Assembly (NCBI RefSeq): GCF_003722315.1
Contig: NZ_CP033580.1
Span: 867,001 to 931,000, forward strand
Direction of reading: 5' to 3'
DNA from: Thermoanaerobacter ethanolicus JW 200
GTDB lineage: Bacteria; Bacillota; Thermoanaerobacteria; Thermoanaerobacterales; Thermoanaerobacteraceae
DNA length: 64,000 bases
In this document: positions 13,912 through 58,684 of the stretch, piece by piece
Layout of the letters: the number at the start of each line of letters is the position of its first letter
Numbering within the stretch: position 1 is the stretch's first letter
The notes under the pieces: model-generated
What the model was told of the DNA's origin: nothing
The model's database searches: none
Seen by the model: only the letters and a program-made list of their open reading frames with translations
Program-made: the position numbers and the translations under genes

Positions 13912-14643
13912 GTGATTGAAAGATACAGAGATTTAGTGATAATTTATGAAAATGATGCAGCATATGTGATATCTTGTGACAGCCTTGGAGCAATAGGGAA
14001 TAAAGAGCATGATGTGTTAAAAGTTGATGAAGAGATTGTAGGAAGGACTACTGTAAAAGTGGCTCTTTCGGAAGTACTATGTGTAGGAGCAAAACCCTTA
14101 GTCATATCCGATACTTTATCCGTTGAAATGAATCCAACAGGGCAAAAAATTTTAAGAGGCATAAAAAGCGAGCTTGAAGAGAACGGACTTTCAGACGTAG
14201 TTTTTACAGGAAGTACTGAAGAAAATTTTCCCACATCTATGACAGGTATAGGAATCACTGTAATAGCAAAAGCAAATATTGGAGACTTAAAAATAAAAAA
14301 AGTCAAAACAGGTATGCATGTTTCTATTTTAGGTTATCCACGTGTAGGAAATGAAGTTTTAAGCTCAAACGATGTGCTTACATTGAAAGACTACGTAAAA
14401 ATTTCCAACTCAAAAGAAATAGTGGAAGCAATACCTGTGGGTTCAAAAGGGATAAAATATGAAATTGGCATATTAGAGAAGATATCAGGATTAAAGGTGG
14501 AGGCGAATTTTCCACAACATCTTGATGTATTAAAATCAGGGGGGCCTTCTACCTGCTGCCTTGTAGTCCACAGTGAGGAAGATACAGCCTCTATTAAAGG
14601 ACTGACAGATAAACCCTTAACATATGTCGGAGTGCTGATTTAG
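13912..14643 (+). CDS. cblS: Alpha-ribazole kinase CblS (AIR synthase-related)
   Basis: 243-residue AIR-synthase/ThiL-like protein (KVALSEVLCVGAKPLVISDTL, GGPSTCC). In B12 salvage CblS phosphorylates alpha-ribazole to alpha-ribazole-5'-phosphate for CobS, replacing the CobT route. No cobT gene is seen in the window, which fits. Starts with GTG 13912 after AAAAGGAG. Also possible: a generic AIR synthase paralogue; context favours CblS. Confidence 0.78.
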   Translation: MIERYRDLVIIYENDAAYVISCDSLGAIGNKEHDVLKVDEEIVGRTTVKVALSEVLCVGAKPLVISDTLSVEMNPTGQKILRGIKSELEENGLSDVVFTGSTEENFPTSMTGIGITVIAKANIGDLKIKKVKTGMHVSILGYPRVGNEVLSSNDVLTLKDYVKISNSKEIVEAIPVGSKGIKYEIGILEKISGLKVEANFPQHLDVLKSGGPSTCCLVVHSEEDTASIKGLTDKPLTYVGVLI

Positions 14644-14666
14644 CGTAAATGAAAGAAGGTGTTTCA

Positions 14667-15752
14667 ATGAAGCCTTATGAGCATGGCGGAAATGTTTATG
14701 ACTATGAAGGAGAAATAATTGATTTTAGTTCAAATATAAATCCTCTTGGGGTTCCGGAATGGATTTTTGATATTATCAAAAAAGTTGATTTAACAAAATA
14801 TCCGGATATAAAATATCGAAAACTTAAAGAGGCTATTTCACAGCATGTGGGGTATTCACAAGAAAATATAATTGTTGGGAATGGTGCGACAGAGCTCATA
14901 CATCTTTTTGTGAGAGCATTTAAGGTGAAAAGACCCCTCATTCCGTCTCCTGCTTTTTTGGAATATGAAAGGGTAGTCTACATAAACGGTGGTGAACCGA
15001 TATATTTCAGGCTGGAAGAAGACTATGGGTTTAAAGTAAATCTCGCAAAGCTTCTTTCACAAATGGAAGAGGCGGATTCTTTAATCATTGGGAATCCTAA
15101 CAATCCTACAGGACAAGCCATAATTAGAGAGGAAATAGGAATTTTATTAAAAAAAGCGGAGATTTTGAATATACCTGTCATGATAGATGAAGCTTTTATT
15201 GAATTTATGAAAGACTATAAAAATTATGAAGCTTTACCTCTTGCAAAAGAGCATGATAAATTGTTTGTTGTAAGAGCTGTTACAAAATTTTTTGGCATGC
15301 CAGGGTTGAGATTGGGGTATGGGATTGGAAGTCCTTCTTTGATACAAAAGTTAGAAGAATACAAAGAGCCTTGGACAGTCAATGCTCTTGCAGATGCTGT
15401 GGGGAGAGAAATATTTAAAGATGAAGCTTATATAGAAAAAACAAGGGAATATGTAAATAAAGAAATAGAGTATATGCTTTATGCTTTAAGAAAAATTGAT
15501 TATTTAGTTGCTTTTGATACAAAAGTAAATTTTATATTGTTAAAGTTAAGAACAGGAAGGGTAAATGACCTTAAACAAATACTTTTAAAAAAAGGAATTC
15601 TCATAAGAGATGCTTCTAATTTTAGGTATCTTGATAAAAGCTTTTTTAGAGTTGCTATAAAAAGACATGAAGACAATGAAAAATTGATACAGGCTTTGAA
15701 AGAAATAGATATAAAAGATTTAGTAGAAGATAAAGAAAGGGTTGTAATATAA
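14667..15752 (+). CDS. cobD: L-threonine-O-3-phosphate decarboxylase CobD
   Basis: Class I/II PLP aminotransferase fold, about 361 residues. HGGNVYD and DFSSNINPLG open the protein, GNPNNPTGQ and the lysine in VRAVTKFFGMPGLRLGYG form the active site. Makes aminopropanol phosphate for CbiB. ATG 14667 follows AAGGTG at a good distance; ATG 14649 is in frame but weaker. The last codons overlap the start of cobU. Confidence 0.92.
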   Translation: MKPYEHGGNVYDYEGEIIDFSSNINPLGVPEWIFDIIKKVDLTKYPDIKYRKLKEAISQHVGYSQENIIVGNGATELIHLFVRAFKVKRPLIPSPAFLEYERVVYINGGEPIYFRLEEDYGFKVNLAKLLSQMEEADSLIIGNPNNPTGQAIIREEIGILLKKAEILNIPVMIDEAFIEFMKDYKNYEALPLAKEHDKLFVVRAVTKFFGMPGLRLGYGIGSPSLIQKLEEYKEPWTVNALADAVGREIFKDEAYIEKTREYVNKEIEYMLYALRKIDYLVAFDTKVNFILLKLRTGRVNDLKQILLKKGILIRDASNFRYLDKSFFRVAIKRHEDNEKLIQALKEIDIKDLVEDKERVVI

Positions 15753-16306
15753 TGAGCCTTGTTATGATCACAGGTGGTGCAAGGTCTGGCAAAAGTGAAT
15801 TTGCTGAAAAATTGGCTTTAGAAAAAGGAGGAAACAGTGTCCTTTATATAGCTACTTCTATTCCTTTTGACGAAGAAATGAAGGAAAGAGTCAAAAGGCA
15901 TAAAGAGAGAAGATCTTCTGCTTGGCAGACGAAAGAGGTCTATAAAAATCTATACAGTGTAATTGCAGAAAGCAGTGCGAAAGTCGCATTGATTGACTGC
16001 CTTACAGTTATGATTACAAACCTATTAATGGAAGTTGACTTAACATGGGAGAATGCAGGAATGGAGGAGATTGATAATATAGAAAATCAGATTGCTGATG
16101 AAGTAGATGAAATATTGACTGCTAAGAAAGATTTTAAGGGGGATATAATTCTTGTGACAAATGAAGTGGGAATGGGATTAGTGCCCGAATACAAACTGGG
16201 CAGGATATTTAGAGATATAGCAGGCAGGATGAATAAAAAAGTGGCAGATGCTGCAGATGAAGTTTATTTAATGGTTTCAGGAATACCTCTTAAAATAAAG
16301 GGATAA
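15752..16306 (+). CDS. cobU: Adenosylcobinamide kinase / GMP guanylyltransferase CobU
   Basis: 184 residues. P-loop GGARSGKSEFAE at the N-terminus, VALIDCLTVMITNL and ILVTNEVGMGLVPEYKLGR are CobU signatures. Converts adenosylcobinamide to its phosphate and then to AdoCbi-GDP. Overlaps the cobD stop (TAATG), so probably translationally coupled. Confidence 0.95.
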   Translation: MSLVMITGGARSGKSEFAEKLALEKGGNSVLYIATSIPFDEEMKERVKRHKERRSSAWQTKEVYKNLYSVIAESSAKVALIDCLTVMITNLLMEVDLTWENAGMEEIDNIENQIADEVDEILTAKKDFKGDIILVTNEVGMGLVPEYKLGRIFRDIAGRMNKKVADAADEVYLMVSGIPLKIKG

Positions 16307-42394: not shown

Positions 42395-43003
42395 ATAAAC
42401 AATAATATGTTTTTTAATAGGGGTAGTAGAATCCATAGAGACAAACTCACTGAAGATAACGCCCATATTTTTGAGGATATTGACCTGGTTTTGAAAGATA
42501 GAGGTCAAATAATCATGAGAGAACTCATTAATAAAAAGGCGGAAAGTCCAATAAGAAGGAAGAGGTTTAAGGATGTTAAAGCCACAAAGATGAGCAATGA
42601 TAAGATTATTGCGGAGATAATCTAAGAGGTCAGAAATTGTACCGAATCTTAAATCTTAATGGCAATAAAAGCTCTGAAAAGTGCATGATGAGAATAATCC
42701 TTACGGCCAGGACTAGAGGAAGGGAATTCAGGTATTGAAGATAGGTCAAGATTTTTAAACATAGAAGAATGGAAATCAATTTTAGACTGAGAAGGTAAAG
42801 AGTTCAGGTATATTTAAAAGCAATTGAAGCTGATACATGTAGGATTTTCTCCTTCTTAAAAAATTTTTTTATAGTGTATATATAATAATTCGACAAATGG
42901 GAGGTGAAATCCTACATAAAAGATAAAAAATTCAAGAGTGATAGGAAAAAAGTATATCTGTAGAATGGCTTAAATGAAGGCTTTTGAATTTTGCACAAGT
43001 CTA
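42395..43003 (-). mobile_element. Decayed 5' part of the DDE insertion sequence
   Basis: On the minus strand it carries the left IS end (TAGACTTGTGCAAAATTC, ending at 43003) and a transposase 5' half full of stops and indels, up to VNILKNMGVIFSEFVSMDS. Together with the operator region it accounts for the interval 42246-43030. Confidence 0.85.
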
Positions 43004-43030
43004 ATATCAGAAAGGATAGGAGGTGAGAAA

Positions 43031-43195
43031 ATGACATATGTAAAACCCACAATTCAAACACTAGGCTCTAAAAACATCAGCTTAAATGGGATAATACAAC
43101 CTATAGGAAATTGGTCATATTTTTTAATTTTCCTACCACATATAGTAGTTGTTGAAACATATGCCGTAGCAGTGACTTCCTACAACTATCAATAA
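43031..43195 (+). CDS. Precursor-like peptide 1 with YxxPxIxxLG leader
   Basis: 54 residues starting MTYVKPTIQTLGSKN; SD GGAGGTG five bases before the ATG. The C-terminal half is hydrophobic (SYFLIFLPHIVVVETYAVAVTSYNYQ). It shares the leader motif T-Y-V-x-P-x-I-x-x-L-G with the peptide at 46944. That motif resembles the YxxPxL recognised by RRE domains in lasso-type leaders. It starts 28 bases after an IS end. No cysteines. RiPP role is inferred. Confidence 0.65.
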   Translation: MTYVKPTIQTLGSKNISLNGIIQPIGNWSYFLIFLPHIVVVETYAVAVTSYNYQ

Positions 43196-43393
43196 AATTT
43201 ACAGGCACATTTATAAGTTGTAAGGAGAAAATCTAATGCAAAATTTGTAGTAAAATTATGTTTTAAAAAATTATGGAACTGATGTAACACGTTGTTCATT
43301 GATATAAAGAAGACACGAAAAAATTTAGAATATTTGTTACTATCTTGACCCGTAAATCTAATAGCAAGCGATTGATTACTAACATTGATACCG

Positions 43394-43522
43394 ATGATCA
43401 AAGTATTCGGCATTGAAAAAATAACAAGTGGTTCCATGAGTCCGGCCTTAATTGATAGTAGTATAGTAGTAATCACCGTGAAAAAACAAAAATTAGTTAT
43501 AACTCTTAAAAAACACAGATAG
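43394..43522 (+). pseudogene. Remnant of an S26 signal-peptidase-like protease
   Basis: A 42-codon open stretch reads VFGIEKITSGSMSPALIDSS. SGSMxPxL is the catalytic-serine motif of S26 (LepB/SipW-like) peptidases, normally near the N-terminus. The catalytic Lys region and everything after is missing or has stops. S26-type peptidases occur in some RiPP clusters. The interval 43196-43754 otherwise shows no gene. Confidence 0.5.
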
Positions 43523-43754
43523 ATAAAATCCAATTAACAGGGAATCTTCTGATAAATATTGGATTTATAAAAGTAAGGTGTTAGAATGAAACAAAATAAC
43601 AAGAATTCCAAAAATAAAATTCAATAAAATAATAGTAAAAAGTCATTGCTATTATTCCAAAAATATTATTTTAAGATAAGTGTATAAAAACATAATAATA
43701 TTAAAATTTTAATTTAAGAATAAGAAATTTTACAAAAATATAAGGGGGAAAGAT

Positions 43755-44654
43755 ATGGTCAGGTATAATGTGATGCATGCTATTCCAATATTCAATAAAG
43801 AAAGTTTAGAATATTTAAGAGAAGAAAAAAATGGGTACATAACAATAATTCTAAAAAACCATCCGGAATTGCGCGAACTTATAATTAATCCAACAGCGGT
43901 AGAAATACTAAAAAAATGTGACGGAGAAAATACAATGGAAGATATACATAATTACTTATGCGATAAATATGATAGTATAGACAGTAAACAAATAGCAAAT
44001 GATGTACTACAAGTATTATCAAATTTTACAAAAGTAGGGCTTATTAGTTGGAAAGGGGAGAAAAACCCATTTATGAGTATTTATGAAGAAATGTTAGATG
44101 GTATTAGATTACGAATAGCAGAAGAGACAGATATAAAAAGTATAATTAAAATGGTAGAAGTAATAAAATCAAAAAAAGGTGATGAAAGCATCTTATGTTA
44201 TATAAACCCCTATAAAAAAATTGATATTGAATATCAAGAAGTAGCAATTAGACAAAAACTATTTGCTTTTACAGAGGAATTTGTTTTAGTTAGTAAAGAT
44301 AATAATGATATAGGTTTAATTAGTTTTGCAATTCCTATTGATTATAAAAGTAGTGCGTGGTCAATCAATTTAATATACATACCCATTGAAGTATTTGATA
44401 AAGCATTTAAATATGCAATTACTAAGATACCTTTAATATCTGTAAGGAGAATCACCAAAATAAAATTTCATTGGATAGAGGGCACAATAGACAAAAGAGT
44501 ATTAGACTGTTTTGCAAAATGTGGATTTAGTTTTGAAGGAACTTTTAGAAAAGAAATTAATTTGGAGAATGTGAGAGTATATGCATATTATATTAATGAG
44601 GAGAATTGTAAAGAACAAAAACCAAATTATACCGAGAATATGGTAATTATATGA
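43755..44654 (+). CDS. PqqD-like (RRE) domain fused to a GNAT-like acetyltransferase domain
   Basis: 299 residues. Residues about 8-100 form a PqqD-like winged helix (GYITIILKNHPELRELIINPTAVEILKKCDGENTMEDI...KVGLISW), the usual RiPP recognition element. Residues about 115-290 look like a GNAT fold (IRLRIAEETDIKSIIKMVEVI, then RVLDCFAKCGFSFEGTFRKEI, the typical late GNAT helix-strand). Positioned between precursor 1 and a radical SAM gene. The RRE probably grips the YxxPxI leader; acetylation of the peptide is a guess. GGGGGAAAG precedes the ATG. Confidence 0.72.
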   Translation: MVRYNVMHAIPIFNKESLEYLREEKNGYITIILKNHPELRELIINPTAVEILKKCDGENTMEDIHNYLCDKYDSIDSKQIANDVLQVLSNFTKVGLISWKGEKNPFMSIYEEMLDGIRLRIAEETDIKSIIKMVEVIKSKKGDESILCYINPYKKIDIEYQEVAIRQKLFAFTEEFVLVSKDNNDIGLISFAIPIDYKSSAWSINLIYIPIEVFDKAFKYAITKIPLISVRRITKIKFHWIEGTIDKRVLDCFAKCGFSFEGTFRKEINLENVRVYAYYINEENCKEQKPNYTENMVII

Positions 44655-44751
44655 GTTTTAGAAAATGGATTTAAACATATTGAAAATTAGAGAAAAACAA
44701 AAAATACTAAAAAGGAATAAATTATACAAAAACTAAATTAGGCTAAAAAAT

Positions 44752-45280
44752 TTAAGCCGATTGTATCAGACCAACAAGAAAAAGACTTAAACTTTGGACA
44801 CAAAAAAGCTCATATAATCAAAAGTATTAAAATTGCTGGCAAAATTAACATTCCTCATATAAGCTTTTTCAAAGTCTAAAGGTTTAAAACGGTAATTATA
44901 TCTTTCTGACTCAATTCTCAGGCTATAAACAGCTTTAAAATATGTGGAATCTCTGTTAATAGAGGATTTATAGGCAGAAGATAAGACGATATATATGATA
45001 CAGCTTCTACGCTTTTTGCCATTAAAATATCTAGGATTACTTGATAAGGCGAGTCGGATCATTTTCAGAATCGCAGAACCTACAAATAAATTTTTGCTTG
45101 AGAAAGCCGTCAAAATACTGATTGCCATCTTTAAGCATTTTAATACTGGTTTCACAAACAATATAACCATCATCAGTCAATGTGAGATTTTTTGGAATTG
45201 CGCTCGTTGAAAGGGACAAAGCAGTGACGTTGTAATGTATTTCTAACAAAATTATAGGGTTCTTTATCAGCGATAAAACT
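44752..45280 (-). mobile_element. Decayed 3' part of the DDE insertion sequence
   Basis: Minus-strand remnant matching the transposase C-terminal half (ESERYNYRFKPLDFEKAYMRN, PRYFNGKKRRS) and ending at the GTTGGTCTGATACAATCGGC 3' segment at 44752. Many frameshifts. Fills most of 44655-45408; the rest shows no gene. Confidence 0.82.
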
Positions 45281-45408
45281 ATGTTCTATGTTAAATCCCT
45301 TAAATGAACTTTGTAAAACATGGGACTTAGTATATGTCGTCCTACATAACACGATTTCTAGTTGCTTTTTTAAATAATTGCTAAATCATAAGAGAGGAGT
45401 AAACATGA

Positions 45409-46452
45409 ATGAAGGAAGATAATAAGATTGCATTAGAGCATGTAAAAATTTTAAGAGGACCTACGCAAGTAGCTGTTGATATTACGAATAAATGTAATTT
45501 TAGGTGTTTACATTGTTATAATTTAAGTGGTGAAAATTGTATCATAGATGAAGAACTATCAGATAATGAGTTTATTGAATTAATAAATGATATTGCGCAA
45601 ATGAAAGTTTACAATGTATGTTTTTGTGGTGGCGAGCCTTTATTGAGGAAGGAGCTTATTTATCAATGTGCAGAAATTTTACGTAAAAATAATGTGCCTA
45701 ATGTATCTTTGGTCACTAATGGATTTTTATTAAGTGAAGAAGTTGCAAAAAATCTATATGAAGCAGGGGTTAATAGAGTCCAAATAAGCCTTGATGGTGC
45801 TGATGCTAAAACTCATGAGAAATTACGGAAAATGAAAGGTGCTTATGAAAAAGCAATTCAAGCTATAAATAACTTAAGGAAAATAGGCTTTAAAGATATT
45901 GATGTTGCATTTTGTCCTACGAAATTTAATATTAACCAAATAAAAGATATCCATAATTTATGCTTAAAATTAGGAGTATCACAGTTACGAATACAACCAT
46001 TAATGTATTTAGGACGTGCTACTAGGAATCTTGATATTGTTCCCTCTCAGCTTCAATATAGAGATTTAGTTAGAGAGATATATGATATACAAAATAGTGG
46101 AAAGCCACCACAAATAGAATGGGGGGATCCTGTAGACCATCTGATACGTTTCCGCACGTTAAGTAAACATTGCATTAATTTTGTTTCAATAAAAGCAAAT
46201 GGCAGTATTATTGTATCACCATATTTACCATTAACTGTAGGTAATATCAGGAAACATAGATTTGGAGAATATTGGGAAGCAGGTTTAGCTAGAATTTGGG
46301 AACTAGATATTGTCAATGAGTTAGCTAGTAAAATAACTTCAATCTCTGACTTTAACAAGAAATACAGTGATATTCCCATTGTTTGGGAAGAAAAAGATAT
46401 TGAAATTGATATAATTGATAATTATAGAATTGAAAACCATTCTTTAGGTTAA
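45409..46452 (+). CDS. Radical SAM peptide-modifying enzyme (PqqE/SkfB-like)
   Basis: 347 residues. The 4Fe-4S SAM motif CNFRCLHC is near residue 28-35, with FCGGEPLLRKEL and VTNGFLLSEE next. The C-terminal region has a SPASM-like layout (FVSIKANGSIIVSPYLPLTVGNI) but only one cysteine (HCINF), so auxiliary clusters seem absent. SD GAGGAG; an ATG at 45405 opens only a five-codon frame, and the real start is ATG 45409. Probably modifies the peptides at 43031 or 46944. Confidence 0.85.
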   Translation: MKEDNKIALEHVKILRGPTQVAVDITNKCNFRCLHCYNLSGENCIIDEELSDNEFIELINDIAQMKVYNVCFCGGEPLLRKELIYQCAEILRKNNVPNVSLVTNGFLLSEEVAKNLYEAGVNRVQISLDGADAKTHEKLRKMKGAYEKAIQAINNLRKIGFKDIDVAFCPTKFNINQIKDIHNLCLKLGVSQLRIQPLMYLGRATRNLDIVPSQLQYRDLVREIYDIQNSGKPPQIEWGDPVDHLIRFRTLSKHCINFVSIKANGSIIVSPYLPLTVGNIRKHRFGEYWEAGLARIWELDIVNELASKITSISDFNKKYSDIPIVWEEKDIEIDIIDNYRIENHSLG

Positions 46453-46943
46453 CATAAATATAGACATTACAAGATCAATTTTCATTCCTGATTGTGCTTG
46501 GCAAGAATAGAGAGTTAATTATTGCGTGAAATTTTCCAAGATATCCGAAATAATGTAAATAACAAAACAGAATCAATAAAAAATTGTACTCCGTAAGCCT
46601 GAAAAAGCCATACATATAATAAAACTTTTAATCTGGCTTTTAGAATGTTCAATATTACAAAAGAGTAAAACGAAAAACAAAAAGAGAAGAGGGATGAGCA
46701 GCATGGATTGAGACATCATAGAGAAAAGCTTTATCAGTGTCAAAGATAACTTCACAGTTACGTATCTATCAATGACATGTGTGGATTTTTGATTTTAGTT
46801 TCGGCAGTTACTACTTTTTACATTAATGGAAGCGAGCTTTCTTTTTCCTCAAGTCTTTTTATATCCAGCATTGTAAGGTTTGACATCCCCTAAAAGATGG
46901 GGTTTATCCGACATAACATGGAATATTTAGGAAAGGAGTGAAT
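46453..46943. other. Gap without a recognisable gene
   Basis: AT-rich sequence between the radical SAM gene and precursor 2. A small inverted pair CCCC/GGGG lies near 46889-46904. A hydrophobic open stretch on the minus strand (46573-46755) has no SD or recognisable motif. It may hold decayed IS sequence. Confidence 0.4.
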
Positions 46944-47165
46944 ATGGTGAGTAATTCTAATACTTATGTTACTCCCTCAATAACACCCCTTGGCGGCGGT
47001 CATGCTGCTGAACCAGAGGGAATTGTAGCTCTTGCTGTCGCAGCTGTTCTGGCTGCTACAGTTTGGGACGTTGTAGGTGTAGTTAATTACGTTGCTGCAT
47101 ATTTGGTACAAACTGTGGTAGCTGTTACTACTTGGGTTAAAGCGATTGAACCTTCCACAAAATAA
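46944..47165 (+). CDS. Precursor-like peptide 2, hydrophobic bacteriocin-type
   Basis: 73 residues from ATG 46944 (SD AAAGGAG). The leader has TYVTPSITPLGGG, then HAAEPEG, followed by a very hydrophobic Ala/Val-rich core with aromatic residues (AVLAATVWDVVGVVNYVAAYL) and end TTWVKAIEPSTK. GGG could be a cleavage site. No cysteine. Shares the leader motif with the peptide at 43031; an SdpI-like immunity gene follows. The membrane-active peptide role is inferred. Confidence 0.72.
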   Translation: MVSNSNTYVTPSITPLGGGHAAEPEGIVALAVAAVLAATVWDVVGVVNYVAAYLVQTVVAVTTWVKAIEPSTK

Positions 47166-49042: not shown

Positions 49043-49185
49043 TACAAAATCTTATATTTGATTTGGAGGTTGACTATGAAAAAAGAGGAGTATAAACATA
49101 TATATTTAGTACTAAAGCCTTACTTAATAAAGGAGCATTCCTGTAATGAATAAAAAATAAGGAAGAATGAACTTTGAAAAAATAA

Positions 49186-49256
49186 GTACCTCCTGATAAA
49201 ATACAGAGTGTAAGTTCTAGAACTTACCTCGAATTATCAAAATAAACAGGAGGTAC
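49186..49256 (+). promoter_or_regulatory. Stem-loop that sequesters the transposase ribosome binding site
   Basis: GTACCTCCTG (49186-49195) pairs with CAGGAGGTAC (49247-49256), which contains the AGGAGG SD of the IS110 transposase (ATG 49262). Inside the loop is the perfect palindrome GTAAGTTCTAGAACTTAC (49210-49227). Transcripts entering from outside would hide the SD, a known way for IS elements to limit transposase made from read-through. Confidence 0.75.
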
Positions 49257-49261
49257 CTAAA

Positions 49262-50545
49262 ATGAAGTATACACAAAATGAAAAGATTTTGCAAGTAACA
49301 GAAGACACATTAATTGCGGGAGTAGACATAGCAAAAGAAAGCCATTATGCCAGAGCATTTGACTACAGAGGAGTAGAATATGGGAAATACCTAAGATTTG
49401 AAAACAATAGAGAAGGTATGACAAAATTTTTTAGATGGGCAAAAGAGTTGATGGAGAGACATAAGAAAAACAAACTAATAGTAGGGATAGAACCGACAGG
49501 GCAATATTGGCTATGTTTTGCCCAATACCTTAAAGACAATAACATAAAGGTAGTATTGGTTAATCCATTTCATGTAAAGAGGAGCAAAGAATTAGATGAC
49601 AATTCTCCCACAAAAAGCGATAAAAAAGACCCAAAAACAATAGCAATGCTAGTAAAAGATGGGAGATATGTAGAGCCGACAATACCTGAAGGAGTATATG
49701 CAGAATTAAGGGTAGCGATGGACATAAAAGACAGGTTGAACAAACAAATAGGGATGACAAAAAATCAAATAACAAGATGGATGGACATATACTTTCCGGA
49801 GTTTAACACCGTATTTTCAGACTGGGAAGGGAAAGCAGCACTTATCACATTAAGAGAATTTCCAACGCCTGAGAAGATAGCAAAAAAGAGTGCTGAAGAA
49901 ATAATATCGATATGGAAGAAAGAAGTACAAAGAGGGGTAGGAGAAAAAAGGGCTATAAAGCTGATAGAAACTGCTAAGGAGAGCATAGGGAAGAAGCAGG
50001 GCATAAAGATGGCGGAATACGAGATAAAGACTCTCATTGAACAATACGAATTTCTCAAAAAACAAATTGAAGAAATAGAGAAGAAGATAGAAGAATTAAT
50101 AGTTGAGATACCAGGGGTTAAAGAACTACTAGAAATCAAAGGGATAGGAGTAAATACAGTAGCAGGTTTTATTGCAGAAGTAGGAGATATTGAGAAATAT
50201 GAACATCCAAAACAGATACAAAAACTAGGAGGATTAAACCTAGTAGAGAATAGCTCTGGTAAACATAAAGGAGAAACGACAATAAGTAAAAGAGGGAGGA
50301 AGCGATTGAGGAGAGTACTATTTAATGCAGTAATGGCCTTGGTTGCAAAAAACGAAGAGTTTCGTGAACTACACAAATATTACACTACCAGAGCGCAAAA
50401 CCCGCTAAAAAAGAAGCAATCACTAATAGTATTGTGCAACAAACTGATAAGGGTATTTTATGTCATATTAAAAAAAGGAGTAAAATATGACCCAATCAAG
50501 ATGATGAAGGACATAAAGAGGCCAGCCTTACAGGAAGCTGCATAA
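49262..50545 (+). CDS. IS110-family transposase (DEDD recombinase)
   Basis: 427 residues. N-terminal RuvC-like DEDD domain (LIAGVDIAKESHYARAFD, IVGIEPTGQYW, SDKKDPKTIAML) and C-terminal Transposase_20 domain (LLEIKGIGVNTVAGFIAEVG, NSSGKHKGETTISKRGRKRLR with the conserved serine). A coiled-coil lies between. IS110 enzymes act with a bridge RNA encoded in the element. Confidence 0.95.
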   Translation: MKYTQNEKILQVTEDTLIAGVDIAKESHYARAFDYRGVEYGKYLRFENNREGMTKFFRWAKELMERHKKNKLIVGIEPTGQYWLCFAQYLKDNNIKVVLVNPFHVKRSKELDDNSPTKSDKKDPKTIAMLVKDGRYVEPTIPEGVYAELRVAMDIKDRLNKQIGMTKNQITRWMDIYFPEFNTVFSDWEGKAALITLREFPTPEKIAKKSAEEIISIWKKEVQRGVGEKRAIKLIETAKESIGKKQGIKMAEYEIKTLIEQYEFLKKQIEEIEKKIEELIVEIPGVKELLEIKGIGVNTVAGFIAEVGDIEKYEHPKQIQKLGGLNLVENSSGKHKGETTISKRGRKRLRRVLFNAVMALVAKNEEFRELHKYYTTRAQNPLKKKQSLIVLCNKLIRVFYVILKKGVKYDPIKMMKDIKRPALQEAA

Positions 50546-51060
50546 AAAGTGCTAACATACTATCAAATCAATTAAGGGTTAATCATCTTCTCTTCAGCTT
50601 TAAATTACTCACATCTAAAAAGCTGACCCTTAAGAAGAATTAATTTTTAGGGAAAACGAAAGTGTGAACGACGTGACATAAAAGGTAAAGTAAGGAATAA
50701 AACAAAAACAACTAGTCAAGATGGTATATTGACAACAAGAGCGGGAATTGTCATACAAGAATAATCACCATACGGGCAAAGACCCTGCAATGGAGCAGAA
50801 ATGACATCCACCTCATGGCAGGTAGAACGAAGGAATTAAGGACTAAGATCCAGTAAGACATGGGAGGGTAAACCCCATGAGATAAGTGGAGCTATCCCGC
50901 CATAATATGGAAATAGGATATGAGGTTTATTAAACTTACCTATTTAATGGTTAGATAAGTAAGAAATGATAATATAAGCCATGAGATGCTCTTGTTGTGA
51001 TGAGAAAATTAAAGAAAAACTAAGATATTAAGAGAAAATAAAAGATAATAGAGGGAGGTA
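50546..51060 (+). ncRNA. Noncoding tail of the IS110 element, candidate bridge-RNA region
   Basis: No gene. TTAAGGGT (50571) and ACCCTTAA (50627) form an inverted repeat just after the transposase. Further on CATGGG...CCCATG (about 50859-50880) makes a hairpin. IS110-type enzymes use a bridge RNA from one noncoding end, and this is the longer one. The segment 50799-51059 is repeated at 56533-56790 without a transposase. RNA role is inferred. Confidence 0.4.
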
Positions 51061-52764
51061 ATAGGATTTTTTATAATAATCTTATCGACGATTATATCTT
51101 TATTGAATCCGTATATCATTAAATTGATCATAGATGTAGCAATAGCAAAAAAGGATACATATAATTTAGTAAAATATACAACAGTTTTTACTGGTGTTTA
51201 TGCGTTAGGAGTTATCTTAAACATTATTCAATCTTACATTTTTACATATATTGGAGAAAAAGTATTATATGATTTAAGATTGAATTTATATAAAAGTGTT
51301 ATGGATAAAGAAATTACTTTTTTTAACGAAAAACAAACAGGTGAAGTCATGTCAAGAATCCTAAACGAATTACCTGATGTTGTAAATTTATTTGTTGGGA
51401 CATTTATAAATATAATTACACAGGTAGCGACATTGGTTATAGCGTTTACAATAATGTTTACTATAAATAAAGAGATAACGATAATCTCAATATTAGTAAC
51501 TCCTCTTATTTATATTGTTTTGAGATATTATAATCCAATATTTAGAAACATAAATCTAGGATTCATGCAGATTAATTCAAAAATTAATAATGTATTACAT
51601 GAGAATATTTCCAACATAAAAGTAATAAAATACTTGAATACATACAAATTTGCTCAAAGAAGATTTTCAATTGTGCTTCATGAATACATAAATAAAAGGT
51701 TTGATAGTATTTATATAAGTAGCATAAGCAATACATTACTCTCTTTTTTATTTTTTATTCCTTCCATAGTTTTGCTTTTATATGGTGGTTACCAAGTAAT
51801 ACTAGGGAAATTAACGATAGGGGGGCTTGTTGCATTATCTTCATATATTAATCAGTTATTTCAACCAATAAAATCGTTGTCAAATATAAATATTGAGTTA
51901 CAAAAATCAAAAGTAGCATTAAAAAGATATTTTGAACTTATAGAAAAAAGTGAAAGTAAAAAAGATGATAATATAAAAATATCAAAAATAAAGAATGGTA
52001 TCACGTTAAACAATGTAACTTTTTCATATCAAAAAGATACTAGTATAATCGAGAATTTAAGTTTGAAATTAGAAGTTGGTAAAACCATAAGGATTTTAGG
52101 ACCTAATGGCAAAGGGAAAACAACGTTAATTGATATAATATGTGGCTTATTAACTCCCCAGTCTGGGATTATAAAATATGATGGTATAGATGTGAAAAAT
52201 ATTAATATATCTTCATTAAAAAGACTTATAGGAGTTGTACCACAAAATGTATCTCTATTTAGTGATACAATAAGGAATAATATTAAGATGGGGAGAGATA
52301 TTGATGATGAAAAAATAATAGGCTTAGTTAAAAAACTTGGCTTTGATGATTTGATTAACGATAAAACTTTAAATCTTAACAGTATAATTACAAATAATGG
52401 AGATAACTTATCAGAAGGTCAAAAAAGAAAAATTACGATACTAAGAGCTTTGGCTCAAGATCCTCAAGTCATCATATTAGATGAAGCATTAACATTTTTG
52501 GATAATTACTCAAAAAATAATTTTTGCAAATACTTAAATAAAATCAAAGAAGATAGGATTATTGTAATGATCTCTCATGAAAATATACCGTATATTGATT
52601 TTGATATGGAACTATGGATTTAACCAATCACTAAGAGATTTAAACTCATCAAATTTACCTAAGCTTTTTAATTTGGAGATAGAATTATTTAAAAGTGATA
52701 ATAATTTATTGGGGAGGTAAAAACAGTTGAAATTAGTAGTAAAAAATGATGTAATTTCAATTGG

Positions 52765-53155
52765 ATGACAATAAATGTTATTAACTATAAAAAAGTCAAA
52801 GAACTGTATGATATAAGCAGAATTACATTAATAAACTGGGAAAAAGAAGGATTAATAACCCCAGTTAGAACACCAAAAGGAAAAAGAAGGTACAAAAAAG
52901 AAGATATAGAGAAGTTATTAGGCATGCTGGAAGAAAAACCAAAACCTAAAGTAATTTTGTATGCAAGAGTATCCACAAAGAAACAAGAAGAATATCTTAA
53001 GAATCAAATTAGAAGGCTTGAAGAATACGCCAATTCCCAAGGATGGCAGTATGAAGTCATACATGAGATAGCAAGTGGAGTAAATGAAATAAAGAACTCG
53101 CAGAAGACTTAATAGCAATAGTAACATCTTTCGCAGCAAGAATTTACGGACAAAA
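52765..53155 (+). pseudogene. tnpA: IS607 serine recombinase (tnpA), copy 3, internal deletion
   Basis: MTINVINYKKVKELYDISRI starts an intact MerR-like HTH (ITLINWEKEGLITPVRTPKG), joined to VILYARVSTKKQEEYL. After ASGVNE a deletion of about 180 bases relative to copies 1 and 2 shifts the frame to a stop at 53112. This copy shows what the full-length N-terminus looks like. Confidence 0.85.
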
Positions 53156-53157
53156 AG

Positions 53158-54483
53158 GTGGTAAAAAGCATGATAGTGATACAGGCTAAACTCATTTTTC
53201 TAACTCAAGAAGACAAACAAATAGTATTAGATTTAATGAGAAGATGGTCTTCATGCATGAGATTTACATACGAAAGACTCTTACAAGGTTATGATAGACA
53301 CATACTAAAAAGAGAGCTTCAAGGGATTTTTAACTTAAACTCAAGATACGTAGATGATGCAATAATGAAAGCAAAAAGCACATTAGAATCCTCTAAAGAA
53401 TTAGGGAATAATCCAAAGAAAGTAATTTTTGGAAGAAGAGACTTGTTTGAAAAACTTCAAAAGCGCCATATAAATGGGAAAGAATATCAAAAGCTAAAAA
53501 CAAAGTGGCAAGAAAAAAGAAAAGGAAATCTGTATTCAAGAGGAGATAAAAGCAAAAAAGGAAATCTCAACACAAGAATAGAAGTAAAAGAAAATGGCAC
53601 TTTCTTAAGGATAAATGTAGGGGAAAGAAAATATGTATATACCAAAATAAAAGCAGGCTATAAAAAGAATAAAAGCAGAGAAGAACTCCTTCAGGAAATC
53701 GCCGAATCAAACATACCCTACTCTGTAGAATTAAAACTCAAAAATGGCAGTATATACGCCTATTTTGCTATTGAAGAAGAATATCCGGAAGTAAAGATAA
53801 CAAAAGAAAAAGGAGTCATAGGAATAGACATAAACGCATATCCAGACAACATATCATGGGTAGAAGTAGATGAAAAAGGGAATCTAATAGGCTATGGGAA
53901 TATACCAATGCCAGAGCTTGCAAGTGGAAATAAAGACAAAAGAGAATACTTCAGATGGCACTATGCTCATGAAATAGTAAAAATAGCAAAACAGAAAAGA
54001 AAAGCAATTGTAATTGAGGGATTAGAAATAAAAGACAAAGGCAAAAGAGGAGACTTTTCAGGGAGAAAATCAAGAAGAATAAGACATAATTTCAGTTATA
54101 AATCAATTCTTTCAAAAATAAAAACACTGGCAAAAAGAGAAGGGATAGAAGTAATAGAAGTCAATCCTTATTACACCTCAATAATAGGGATGTTAAAATA
54201 TGCACCGCAATACATGATAACGAAAGATATAGCAGCGGCCTATGTAATAGCAAGAAGGGGATTAGGACTACAAGAAAAGATACCAGATAATTATATAAAG
54301 TTTCTCAACGCATTGACTGTAGATGAATTAGAAGAATTAAAAGAACATGTAAAGAAAACAGTTAGAAATAAGCATTTAAAGAAAAAACATTTAAGAGAAA
54401 TAAACAAAGCAATAGAATTTTTACAAAGCCTTGAGAGTAAGCCAGGAAGGGTGCTAGAAACCTCTGGATGGAACAAGTTTTAG
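53158..54483 (+). CDS. tnpB: TnpB, IS607 element copy 3, C-terminus altered
   Basis: 441 residues from GTG 53158 (ATG 53170 likely). Catalytic GVIGIDINAYPD, IVIEGLEIKDKG and TKDIAAAYVIARRG are kept. One extra A near 54457 (GCTAGAAACCTCTGG) shifts the frame, so it ends ETSGWNKF instead of continuing about 40 residues. As that tail is variable between copies, the nuclease may still be functional. Confidence 0.83.
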   Translation: MVKSMIVIQAKLIFLTQEDKQIVLDLMRRWSSCMRFTYERLLQGYDRHILKRELQGIFNLNSRYVDDAIMKAKSTLESSKELGNNPKKVIFGRRDLFEKLQKRHINGKEYQKLKTKWQEKRKGNLYSRGDKSKKGNLNTRIEVKENGTFLRINVGERKYVYTKIKAGYKKNKSREELLQEIAESNIPYSVELKLKNGSIYAYFAIEEEYPEVKITKEKGVIGIDINAYPDNISWVEVDEKGNLIGYGNIPMPELASGNKDKREYFRWHYAHEIVKIAKQKRKAIVIEGLEIKDKGKRGDFSGRKSRRIRHNFSYKSILSKIKTLAKREGIEVIEVNPYYTSIIGMLKYAPQYMITKDIAAAYVIARRGLGLQEKIPDNYIKFLNALTVDELEELKEHVKKTVRNKHLKKKHLREINKAIEFLQSLESKPGRVLETSGWNKF

Positions 54484-54599
54484 TACCTATGATTTCTGGC
54501 AAGTTCTCAAGGTAGCGGTGGTGACACCACTCTCTCCTGAGAAGGTACCAAGAGACTTCTCTGTCCTGAAGGAATTATTAATTCAGGGCAAGTGGGGAG

Positions 54600-54747
54600 A
54601 CCCGTAAGGGCGCAAGTTCCTGCTTCTTGGGGCAGGGGCTATGACTTTCCCAAAAACCGCCTGCTGGGGCTGGGAAAGTCTGAAGGGCGGACTATAAATA
54701 CCCCAGCTATCTAAACTGTACATTTTTGTACAGTTTGGGTAACCAGG
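54600..54747 (+). ncRNA. Candidate TnpB guide RNA scaffold, copy 3, with compensatory change
   Basis: Same layout as copy 2, but the long stem reads GACTTTCCC/GGGAAAGTC instead of GGCTTTCCC/GGGAAAGCC: a G-C pair replaced by A-T on both sides. The crossing CCGCC/GGCGG pairing and the terminal hairpin are kept. The guide would be the 5' end of the ABC ATPase gene at 54754. Confidence 0.62.
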
Positions 54748-54753
54748 TACACG

Positions 54754-55566
54754 ATGAAAATAATTGAAGTAAAAAAACTTAAAAAATCAATAAATGGGAA
54801 TCCTGTTTTAAAAGATGTAAACCTGATGGTTTTTAAAGGAGAGATTTACGGTTTTTTAGGGAGGAATGGTGCAGGCAAAACAACGACGTTACGTATAATA
54901 CTCGGTTTACTTAAAAGAGATGGTGGAGAAATAAAAATATTTGGAGAAAATTTGTCCAGAGGACATTTTAAAAAAATAGGAGTTATGTTTGAGTATGAGA
55001 CTTTAAACCTGGAGTGGACAGTATTGGATAACCTGAGACAAACATGTTATATATATGGAATTGAGGAAAGGGAAATATATAAGTATCTTGATATAATTGA
55101 ATTTTCCAGAAGTGATGTATATAAAAAAGTGAAACAACTTTCTAAAGGGATGAAAAGGAAAGTTTCTTTAATTAATGCTATCTTGCCGGAGCCGGAATTA
55201 TTAATTCTTGATGAACCTACATCCGGTTTAGATCCAGAAATGCAGCTTACCATAAGAGAGATTCTATTAAAGTTTAAATTGCAAGGCAAAACTATACTTT
55301 TTAGTTCTCACAATTTAAATGAAGTACAAAAAATAAGCGACAGAATAGGATTAATAAAAGAAGGAGAAACATTGCTAGAAACTCAAATTAAAAAAGAGCT
55401 GTATTTAGTAGAGGGTAATTATCCTGAACTTTTGGATAATAAAGTAAAAGACAAGAATCTTTATGTAGTTGATGAAAAAGTAATTAAAGAGTTTAATATC
55501 CAAAAGTATCAAGCTATCAAAGACATTGAAGAATTATATATAAAGATTATGGGGATGGAGGCGTAA
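54754..55566 (+). CDS. ABC transporter ATPase (BcrA/NatA-like, probable self-resistance)
   Basis: 270 residues. Walker A GRNGAGKTTTLRIILGLL, signature QLSKGMKRKVSLINAI, Walker B ELLILDEPTSGLDPEM, switch His in FSSHNLNEVQK. The ATG is 6 bases from an IS607 end; the native SD has been split and only CCAGG remains. Coupled with the permease that follows. BcrA-type pairs often give resistance to peptide antibiotics. Confidence 0.9.
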   Translation: MKIIEVKKLKKSINGNPVLKDVNLMVFKGEIYGFLGRNGAGKTTTLRIILGLLKRDGGEIKIFGENLSRGHFKKIGVMFEYETLNLEWTVLDNLRQTCYIYGIEEREIYKYLDIIEFSRSDVYKKVKQLSKGMKRKVSLINAILPEPELLILDEPTSGLDPEMQLTIREILLKFKLQGKTILFSSHNLNEVQKISDRIGLIKEGETLLETQIKKELYLVEGNYPELLDNKVKDKNLYVVDEKVIKEFNIQKYQAIKDIEELYIKIMGMEA

Positions 55567-55568
55567 AA

Positions 55569-56222
55569 ATGCTAAAACTTATAAGATTAGAAGTTGTTAA
55601 TTTTTTAAAAGTGTCAATATTCCCTTTTATCCTTTTAAATTTGGTTGTAGCAATTGTTGTAAAAAATATGAAAAATGTTTTTGATTTATTGAGTTCTTCT
55701 TCTGATATTTGCACTTTTTATATTTTATTTCTTATGATTATAATTTCGTATGCAGCTGCTTTTATGACGACTATAAATTTTGAAAAAGAAAAATTAAGTA
55801 ATCTCTATCATAGATATTTTGTTTTGCCTCTACCACCAGGGATAATTTTTGCAATTAAACTCTTTCCTTCTATCATCTGTAGTATGTGTGTAGTATTAAT
55901 TTGGGGAATAGTTATGTTTTTAATGTTTCACCCTGTTACATTAATTACTTTTATTATGGCGTTATGTAATGCCTTGATTTTTGTGATTGGAAGTATTTTA
56001 TTAATCTTCTATTTTGATCTTACTTTAAAGAATGTTTCAATTGTATATGGAATTAAATTCATTTTAATATTTGTGCTTTCATACCTCCCCAATTTTATAG
56101 TTTCCCAGAATGTTTCTATAAAAGTTGTAAATTATAGTATTATTATTTTCACCTTTTTACTCTTTATTACGGGTATTATTTTTGTTAATAATGTTGATTC
56201 TGAAAAAGTAATACTATCATGA
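55569..56222 (+). CDS. ABC-2 type permease, partner of the preceding ATPase
   Basis: 217 residues, six hydrophobic segments; INFEKEKLSNLYHRYFVLPLPPG is the amphipathic loop typical of small ABC-2 permeases. ATG 55569, two bases after the ATPase stop, with SD GGAGG inside the ATPase end. Substrate unknown. Confidence 0.8.
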   Translation: MLKLIRLEVVNFLKVSIFPFILLNLVVAIVVKNMKNVFDLLSSSSDICTFYILFLMIIISYAAAFMTTINFEKEKLSNLYHRYFVLPLPPGIIFAIKLFPSIICSMCVVLIWGIVMFLMFHPVTLITFIMALCNALIFVIGSILLIFYFDLTLKNVSIVYGIKFILIFVLSYLPNFIVSQNVSIKVVNYSIIIFTFLLFITGIIFVNNVDSEKVILS

Positions 56223-56226
56223 TTAT

Positions 56227-56538
56227 ATGGATAATATTGATGCGAGGCAAAATGAAGATTATTTTACTCTTTTTGGAATTTATGCATGCAAAATATATAG
56301 TGATGAGAAAGGGAAAGATAGTAAGATATGTATATATCAGAAAATTGTGGATGAAGTATCAATGGTAATAAAACTGCTAGCTGAGAAAATAGCAAGTGAA
56401 TATGAAAAGATAGTAAAAGAAAAAGAGCTAAAAGAGATAAAGATAAAATTAAATGACAGGCAGACAAAAATACTGGCATTAGAGGCAAAGGGATACAGAG
56501 AATTAGACATAGCAGAAGCTCTGGGGATAGATAAATGA
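56227..56538 (+). pseudogene. Fragment of the GAF-LuxR regulator
   Basis: From about 56340 it matches the regulator helix (VDEVSMVIKLLAEKIASEYEKI) and the first part of the HTH (LNDRQTKILALEAKGYRELDIAEALGI), then breaks at GID where the 50.8-kb-type repeat starts. The preceding codons are unrelated. No recognition helix, so it cannot bind DNA like the intact protein. Confidence 0.78.
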
Positions 56539-56790
56539 CATCCACTTCATGACAGAAAGAATTAAGAACTAAGTTCCAGTAAAACATGGGAAGGTAAACT
56601 ACATGAGATATGTGTTAAAGCATTTTGCTATAATATGGAAATATGATATAGGGCTTATTAAACACATCCATTTAATGGTTAAATAAGTAATAAATTATAA
56701 TATAAGCTATAAGGTGTTCTAGTTGTGATGAGAAATTTAAAAAAACTAAGATATAAGAAAAAATAAAAGGATAACAGAAGGAGGGAGGTG
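56533..56790 (+). repeat. Second copy of the IS110-associated noncoding repeat
   Basis: About 255 bases similar to 50799-51059 (shared AAATGACATCCAC start, TTTAATGGTTA, GTTGTGATGAGAAA, GGGAGGT end). It joins a broken regulator gene to the SD of a small peptide gene. Probably the remnant of an IS end. Confidence 0.75.
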
Positions 56791-56792
56791 AC

Positions 56793-56981
56793 GTGATCGA
56801 GTATTTGATTGACCACTAAATTCTAGGAATTCTAAAGATATTGTAAAACCGGATTCTGTACAAGTGGATCCAGGACCAGTAATGGGGTGTTCAATTTATT
56901 ATTGCCCTTTGGACTGGATGTGTGGTGGCAAGGTAAAAGTGCGATCCTTATTGTGCATCATACTGTTATTACAGCTGGTAA
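56793..56981 (+). pseudogene. Cys-rich RiPP precursor peptide, frameshifted
   Basis: SD GGAGGGAGG precedes GTG 56793 (VIEYLID-stop). In the next frame runs NSRNSKDIVKPDSVQVDPGP, then VMGCSIYYCPLDWMCGGKVK, and in a third frame CDPYCASYCYYSW-stop. Two single-base corrections (near 56110 of the series, i.e. about 56112, and about 56938) would give one peptide of about 62 residues with six cysteines in the core. It sits upstream of a SPASM radical SAM remnant, as for sacti- or ranthipeptides. A terminator follows. Confidence 0.55.
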
Positions 56982-57015
56982 ATTTTAAAAAATAGAAATT
57001 ACGATAAAGTGTTAT

Positions 57016-57042
57016 TGCGGTATAGATACCGCATATTTTTTA
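57016..57042 (+). terminator. Terminator after the Cys-rich peptide gene
   Basis: TGCGGTA / TACCGCA with a TAGA loop, followed by TATTTTTT. It separates the peptide gene from the protease gene and may allow more precursor than enzyme mRNA. Confidence 0.85.
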
Positions 57043-57060
57043 CAAGAATGGGTGGTTAGA

Positions 57061-57981
57061 GTGATAAATAGATTAACTAAATTAATCTTAATATTTCTTA
57101 TATTTAATACAGGCTTTGTATATGGAACACGATTTATAATTGGAAATATACTGCGAATTATCTTTAAAATTTTTGATATTCACAATCCCCCTATTATAGG
57201 AATGATCAGTACTTTAACATATAATTATACATCACAATTTTTGTTGTTATTTATAATACTGTATTTATTGAAAAAATTTGATTATATGAAATATGTCAAA
57301 ATTTCTTTAAAAGCGTTTTTAAAATTGATAGTTTTTACAATATTACTGGTAGGAATTACAAAATGTTTGTTGGATATATTTCATATATACAATTTTACTA
57401 TTTGGACTGGCATAGAGGAGAAGTCGTTATATTGGGTTAGTTGGGTAGATTATGTAGGGGCAATATTATTTATTTTTTTATTTGTGTTTGTTGCCCTAAC
57501 GGAAGAATACTTATTTAGAGTTATTATTTATCATAAAGTATCAGAAATAATTAGTCTGAAGAATAAAGTTTTACATGCAATAATTGCTGTTTTATTGACA
57601 AATATATTATTTGCGATGGGACATTGGCCTTCTCATGGTTACAAATTATTACCGTATTTATATTTAACTTTATGGGGAATATATTTTAGTTATTTGTATT
57701 TGCGGACAAAAAACATATATACAGCCTGTGTAATGCACTTCATATTAAATGCTGGAATTATAGTAACATGGCCTCTTAAGAATCTTTCACTTATTTTAAA
57801 TGCAGGTGAGATTTTTTATATTATTGTCTCTATATTTTTAATAGAAGCATATAAAATTTTTAAATATTTCAATAGAAACAACAAAACTCTAAATAAATTA
57901 TCAGAGAGAAATATTGAAACAGGTGAAAACCAGACCTTTTATGAAATTAATAAAAATGAGTTTTGGAAAAGGATGTTTTAA
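57061..57981 (+). CDS. CPBP-family intramembrane metalloprotease (CAAX-like)
   Basis: About 306 residues, seven or eight membrane segments. The three active-site motifs are present: EEYLFRVIIY (EExxxR), ILFAMGHWPSHG (His) and CVMHFILNAG (HxxxN). GTG 57061 follows GGTGG; GTG 57052 is an alternative. Such proteases serve in bacteriocin maturation or immunity, which fits its place between a peptide gene and a radical SAM remnant. Confidence 0.85.
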   Translation: MINRLTKLILIFLIFNTGFVYGTRFIIGNILRIIFKIFDIHNPPIIGMISTLTYNYTSQFLLLFIILYLLKKFDYMKYVKISLKAFLKLIVFTILLVGITKCLLDIFHIYNFTIWTGIEEKSLYWVSWVDYVGAILFIFLFVFVALTEEYLFRVIIYHKVSEIISLKNKVLHAIIAVLLTNILFAMGHWPSHGYKLLPYLYLTLWGIYFSYLYLRTKNIYTACVMHFILNAGIIVTWPLKNLSLILNAGEIFYIIVSIFLIEAYKIFKYFNRNNKTLNKLSERNIETGENQTFYEINKNEFWKRMF

Positions 57982-58047
57982 GGGAAAAGTAAGTTTCTAA
58001 AGCAATATCAATTTTAATCCGCTATTGATAACAAATTTGGAGGTATA

Positions 58048-58684
58048 TGATTATAAGTAATGATTGAGGGCATAAAAATGTTTTTGAATTTGTTGATTTA
58101 CCTTCTCAACAGAATTTTTTTTATTTTGATAATACTATTTAATTTATTTGGCTTCTGATATAACAACTGTAAAATTGTTAAGCGATTTGGGAGTTACTTC
58201 AGTTAAATTTGCACGCTTGAAACCTTGGGATTGGGGGCAACAATTGTCAAACATTATACCAAATAAGGAGGAAATAAAGAAAGTTAACGAAAAAATTTGG
58301 AATATAGAAGGAAAATATAAAGGCATTAAAATAATGGGAGATGTACCCAAGTCTATTGAAGACCAAAAGGTTCCAGGTTGCAATATAAACGTCGGTTTTG
58401 AAATTCAACCTGATGGGAATGTGCTTCCATGCCGGATTTTCGAGCAAAGAGTAGATGATAAAATAATTCTAGGCAACATAAAATCACAAGATATTTTTGA
58501 AATATGGAATAGTGAGAAAGCAAAAAGGATAAGAAGTTATTCCAAGAGATTAAGCAAAAGATTTCTGTGTACTAAATGTGAATTTGCTCGCTTCTGTTCT
58601 ACAAATTATTGTATTGCTGGAAATTTCATAAAATTTGGTAAATTTATTCCTTCAGAGGAGGATTTAAATAAATGCAAAATTTAA
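58048..58684 (+). pseudogene. SPASM radical SAM maturase, core deleted
   Basis: GGAGG and an ATG at 58048 start a decayed N-terminus (VFEFVDLPSQQNFFYFDNTI in a frame with stops), then the SAM barrel with its CxxxCxxC is missing. The frame from TTG 58148 resumes with LLSDLGVTSVKFARLKPW and a full SPASM domain: GCNINVGFEIQPDGNVLPCR, then CTKCEFARFCSTNYC. Without the SAM cluster it cannot be active. Partner of the broken Cys-rich peptide. Confidence 0.8.

Follow-up and report, generated by a model that had tools for sequence, protein, structure and literature searches.

Closest described systems

By profile score, the described systems closest to the locus are Clo7bot (TIGR04333/TIGR04334) and TIGR04463, in which a short Cys-rich precursor lies beside a radical SAM/SPASM gene, as it does in the uninterrupted relative of the locus, found in the genome G015. 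They give the best scores with the G015 maturase and with the relatives of this maturase; nevertheless, the maturases considered here stay well below both cut-offs and the precursors match no precursor model. A Cys-rich core and a radical SAM enzyme with a SPASM domain are also shared with the PapB ranthipeptides (NF047865) and SCIFF peptides (TIGR03974 maturase; structure 5wgg), to which the similarity of the maturase is weaker but clear, while the G015 maturase falls below the cut-offs and the precursor has no SCIFF precursor match. The skf sactipeptide cluster likewise comprises a precursor, a radical SAM gene, a putative protease, and ABC export/resistance genes (PMC8172795), but its precursor is unrelated, its gene order differs, and the G015 maturase has neither TIGR04403 (SkfB) among its top matches nor SkfB among its PDB matches at 1e-5. 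A thuricin-like sactipeptide cluster has been listed for Thermoanaerobacter mathranii in a genome-mining paper (PMC4289311). In the literature outside subscription journals, no paper found describes the precursor presented here.

The window, i.e., the whole 64 kb stretch of DNA analysed (G000:C1:867001-931000), comes from a closed genome of 2.91 Mb and very probably carries a RiPP precursor gene that has become a pseudogene and belongs to an uncurated subgroup of the radical SAM/Cys-rich systems; its proposed history is given below. On the sequence comparisons available, the pseudogene fits best as a decayed representative of a broad, largely uncurated set near Clo7bot/TIGR04463.

Table 1. Features of the precursor locus, its surroundings in the window, and the paralogous system of the same genome
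Feature	Position	Strand	Remarks
Intact IS110-type element	~49136-51046		Trims 5' end of exporter gene; ends in the same letters as the remnant at 56602..56788
ABC exporter	51046..52623	+	60% identity to exporter of the G015 cluster, same family; 5' end removed by intact IS110
ABC ATPase and permease (immunity-type pair)	54754..56222	+	Open frames; TIGR03740-like, below cut-off
Decayed right end of IS110-family element	56602..56788	+	Abuts precursor gene; seven further copies in the genome, 82% identity
Precursor, piece 1	56793..56813	+	Frame 0; (V)IEYLID, start of leader; aligns with MEYLIET (G004) and MEYIMK (G015)
Precursor, piece 2	56816..56932	+	Frame 2; LNSRNSKDIVKPDSVQVDPGPVMGCSIYYCPLDWMCGGK, i.e., leader remainder DIVKPDSVQVDPGP and first core half GCSIYYCPLDWMCGG
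Precursor, piece 3	56937..56981	+	Frame 0; KCDPYCASYCYYSW (56937-56978), then TAA stop
Terminator-like hairpin	57016..57033	+	After the precursor, ahead of the CPBP gene; TATTTTTT follows
CPBP/CAAX-type membrane protease gene	57052..57981	+	Intact; PF02517, E 3e-17
SPASM-domain tail from another radical SAM enzyme	58148..58684	+	Best matches are other radical SAM families
Intact paralogous system	L110:10073-15757 = G000:C1:348072-353756		Maturase, precursor, S41 peptidases, ABC exporter

The broken precursor gene and its relatives

As the first-pass annotation proposed, the gene is broken by two frameshifts, and all the pieces described there are present (Table 1); they had been assigned to three frames, whereas only two are used (0, 2, 0). 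The window precursor has a GTG at 56793, while the homologues have an ATG, one codon further on. The middle piece is 61-69% identical to the uninterrupted product of G015 and, at the DNA level, 88% identical to a copy in G004, and the third piece aligns with CDPYCASYYYF of G004 and CTFCGSWCAYRG of G015. A tblastn search of the window with the G015 product finds the middle piece at E 3e-12, the next best match having E 0.02, and in a whole-genome search the middle piece has a single counterpart, a gene of the family-mate G015 (E 2.1e-10). The terminator that had been proposed after the peptide corresponds to a terminator-like hairpin (one found, against 0.2 expected from shuffled sequences). 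In this way, a precursor missed by gene callers can be recovered from its decayed frame and linked to an uninterrupted relative.

The G015 homologue, MEYIMKPNDIVKPESVQPSPGGGCSVYYCPLDWVDGGIGSGDCTFCGSWCAYRG, is a single uninterrupted frame (60 codons) with GGAAGGAGGTG in front, and its 54-residue precursor consists of the leader MEYIMKPNDIVKPESVQ and the core GGGCSVYYCPLDW...C..C...C. It sits between a radical SAM/SPASM maturase gene and a gene for a CPBP (CAAX-type) membrane protease, and has what is expected of a RiPP precursor in such a radical SAM/SPASM system: a short ORF, a leader, a Cys-rich core, and an adjacent radical SAM/SPASM gene; in the window the radical SAM gene is missing and the ORF is broken. 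The idea of a peptide gene, which was to be given up if no genome held an intact homologue, survives with this finding. Also upheld is its description as a Cys-rich, RiPP-like peptide with a leader, the latter comprising DIVKP[DE]SVQ. Of the core pattern put forward, C-x4-C-x5-C-x5-C-x3-C-x3-C, the Cys-rich character stands, but six cysteines do not define the type, the intact G015 core having five, with Asp at the third Cys position and the end C-x2-C-x3-C; the spacing is partly distorted by the second frameshift, and G004 gives x6 between the third and fourth cysteines. The core had been said to fit no named class, and the precursor indeed matches no named precursor family. For Clo7bot precursors (TIGR04333, 31 bits), the tested precursors gave no match and nothing over the cut-off was found in the genomes of the window, G004, and G015, in a search whose control matches weakly in most genomes. 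Judging from the class of the maturase, the living window-type peptide was probably thioether-bridged.

The second copy, in the congener G004 (MAG record DULG01000088.1), is 88% identical to the window at the DNA level and has no read-through; it leaves the frame at a different place and its last Cys codon is altered. Over the leader and the first core half, six substitutions in the shared frame separate the window from G004: four are silent, and the other two fall in one codon (Met/Val). Because these differences are mostly silent and the breaks independent, the precursor gene appears to have been under selection once and then lost independently in the two genomes, the pattern being suggestive rather than proof.

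This precursor type was seen in three genomes only. No homologue was found in the same-species genome G061, in other members of the order, or in plasmid and viral-contig collections, and no convincing one among 398 genomes of the phylum, a draw that did not contain G015, so that absence from it speaks only for a sample. A GTDB-wide pattern scan matched the G004 record alone, and little was seen in a class search around G337 (15 genomes only). Weak matches at L036 and L037, in unrelated genomic contexts, are attributed to chance, as are the sub-threshold matches of the phylum search, which are very short or contain stops.

The CPBP gene: immunity or processing

The CPBP gene lies directly 3' of the precursor, and its product has 44% identity to the CPBP protein of G015, whose gene follows the precursor there. 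Its translation contains EEYLFR and FAMGH, in agreement with the EExxxR and FxxxH motifs (as defined in PMC9298176) of a CPBP protein with an Rce1-like domain. At bacteriocin loci, CAAX proteases have variously been described as conferring immunity, as processing enzymes, or as receptors (PMC9298176). In Thermoanaerobacterium-type genomes the CPBP genes have kept open frames, and pairwise Ka/Ks values of 0.20-0.45 show them to be under purifying selection; in G009, G012, G013, and G016 the first CPBP gene is open and neither a maturase (E 1e-25) nor a precursor is detectable, in G014 only a truncated maturase is found, and in G017 the first CPBP gene itself is broken. An immunity role is favoured because the CPBP genes persist under purifying selection with no detectable precursor or maturase. 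It is this persistence that speaks against CPBP being instead the leader-processing protease of the system, a real possibility but not the preferred one, to which the conserved catalytic motifs (EEYLFR, FxxxH), the processing role among those reported for CAAX proteases (PMC9298176), and the putative protease SkfC of the skf sactipeptide cluster (PMC8172795) lend weight. The persistence of CPBP may also reflect an unrelated housekeeping role. The locus is a case in which the possible retention of immunity genes, once the producer genes are gone, can be put to the test.

Nature of the frameshifts

The lesions of the window precursor are single-base shifts, and the G015 maturase likewise has one frameshift, in an A-run, both of which would suit a gene that is intact in the organism and disrupted only by sequencing or assembly errors. 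Such errors are an improbable explanation, however, since several one-base differences from G004 are bunched in ca. 130 bp next to an open CPBP frame of 930 bp, the G004 copy is broken elsewhere in the gene, and the window precursor adjoins an IS end and has another codon where the homologues start. Programmed recoding, with the peptide made from three pieces, would account for the net frame being restored at the end of the gene, but deserves next to no credence in view of the one-frame product of G015, the different break in G004, and the stops close to each frameshift junction in the window. That Cys codons came together by chance in non-coding DNA, for which nothing speaks beyond the short length of the precursor, is refuted by the uninterrupted homologue in G015, matched at E 2e-10 to 3e-12 and located in the same synteny.

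Insertion sequences and the proposed history of the pseudogene

The first-pass annotation had recognized a perfect Shine-Dalgarno sequence before the peptide. GGAGGGAGG does exist, at 56780-56788, but a right-end alignment places it at the conserved right end of an IS110-type element, intact copies of which end identically, and it is no sign of this gene. The transposase of the full copies belongs to PF01548/PF02371 and their right end matches the remnant, in keeping with its assignment to the IS110 family. The remnant divides the precursor gene from anything upstream. IS110 insertion into the ribosome-binding region combined with upstream loss is the simplest history of the pseudogene: the element would have landed in the Shine-Dalgarno region, no maturase would have been left upstream, and the frame would have decayed, probably in this order, with CPBP still intact.

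Two other elements of the window, the IS110-type one at 49136-51046 and an IS607-type one (MerR-resolvase and TnpB-like) at 52720-54745, both lie at GGAGG ribosome-binding-like sites, which are empty in G007.

The living system of the G015 type most likely operates like other Cys-rich RiPPs with SPASM-type enzymes: the radical SAM enzyme encoded next to the precursor would recognize its leader and, as the class of the maturase suggests, install Cys-derived thioether cross-links in the core; the peptide would presumably exit via the ABC exporter, with the leader removed, and CPBP would serve as an immunity protein (more likely) or a processing protein. The gene order in G015 is radical SAM/SPASM maturase, precursor, CPBP, an IS21-type element, a second CPBP, and ABC exporter.

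Neighbouring genes

The ABC exporter located ca. 4 kb upstream of the window precursor presumably belongs with it; G007 carries a full-length exporter copy and the empty insertion site. The window and G007 are collinear on either flank, but G007 has neither the block comprising the precursor and CPBP (56532-58165) nor the IS607-type element. The ABC ATPase/permease pair is 97% collinear in G007, and because it is collinear there with the exporter, its link to the precursor is uncertain. As both occur in G007 without the precursor, the exporter and the ABC pair may serve another peptide.

The SPASM remnant downstream had been taken for that of the maturase of the peptide. It comes from a different enzyme: compared with the SPASM half of the G015 maturase it gives a meaningless E of 0.15, and its matches to other radical SAM families together with this value rule it out as the partner of the precursor. 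The fragment recurs at 97-98% in G007, G008, and G004, where the gene is broken or truncated as well. No matching maturase is present within the window, the only radical SAM match being a 30% one at 45409.

A separate RiPP-like cluster occupies 42974-47165 of the window. It comprises a protein that has a PqqD domain and is much extended at its C-terminus (43755-44654), a radical SAM gene (45409-46452), and two small hydrophobic ORFs (42974-43195 and 46938-47165) with the leaders YVKPTIQTLGS / YVTPSITPLGGG; a related PqqD-radical SAM pair is carried by G007. Another possible RiPP cluster, in which no precursor was found, adjoins the same broken SPASM gene in G004 (L040:1195-6845) and codes for a Lon-type protease domain protein (178 aa), two radical SAM/SPASM proteins, and an ABC pair.

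The G015 maturase and its wider family

Because the G015 maturase is frameshifted, none of the clusters seen with exactly this precursor type is fully intact, and the G015 cluster may itself be damaged or mis-sequenced. The two halves of the maturase match TIGR04463, Clo7bot, and PapB-type maturases, all under the cut-off (217 and 72 bits against 600 for TIGR04334, 233 and 52 bits against 525 for TIGR04463). Among solved structures, the closest to it in sequence is 5wgg, the SCIFF maturase CteB.

In many genomes the relatives of this maturase are flanked by Cys-rich precursors starting with M-x-[YWF]-[ILV], a recurrence that is a description rather than a test because the precursors were picked partly by this start. 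MEYLIEGY... is found in several Thermoanaerobacter-type genomes, including that of the window, and other starts are MTYLIEGNS..., MEWIVKPSK..., MSWLVTPSN..., and MVWLIAPSP.... Seven of these precursors gave no meaningful match to NCBIfam models, and the maturases are all below the NCBIfam equivalog cut-offs. The motif C-[AG]-S-[WY]-C recurs in the precursors of G015, the window, and G003. Tentatively, G015 and its relatives could form a new Thermoanaerobacterales subgroup of thioether peptides (leader M-x-[YWF]-[ILV]...DIVKP[DE]SVQ, core C-x4-C-PLDW, Cys/Asp exchange at one position) with dedicated CPBP immunity genes that outlive the producer genes as orphan resistance, although this is more than we would expect to hold in full.

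The locus indicates that heat-loving anaerobes have an uncurated group of Cys-rich radical SAM peptides, of which the window genome has an intact example elsewhere (L110 in Table 1). The maturase of this paralogous system (14432-15757) is intact, with 39% identity to that of G015, and scores 392 bits against the TIGR04334 cut-off of 600 and 316 bits against the TIGR04463 cut-off of 525; its precursor (14151-14339), MEYLIEGYNKEIGN..., is matched by no NCBIfam model. In G145 (L107:6427-7612), four to five tandem Cys-rich precursors (NDAGCPWLCY...CVCD...) lie ahead of a TIGR04463-like maturase.
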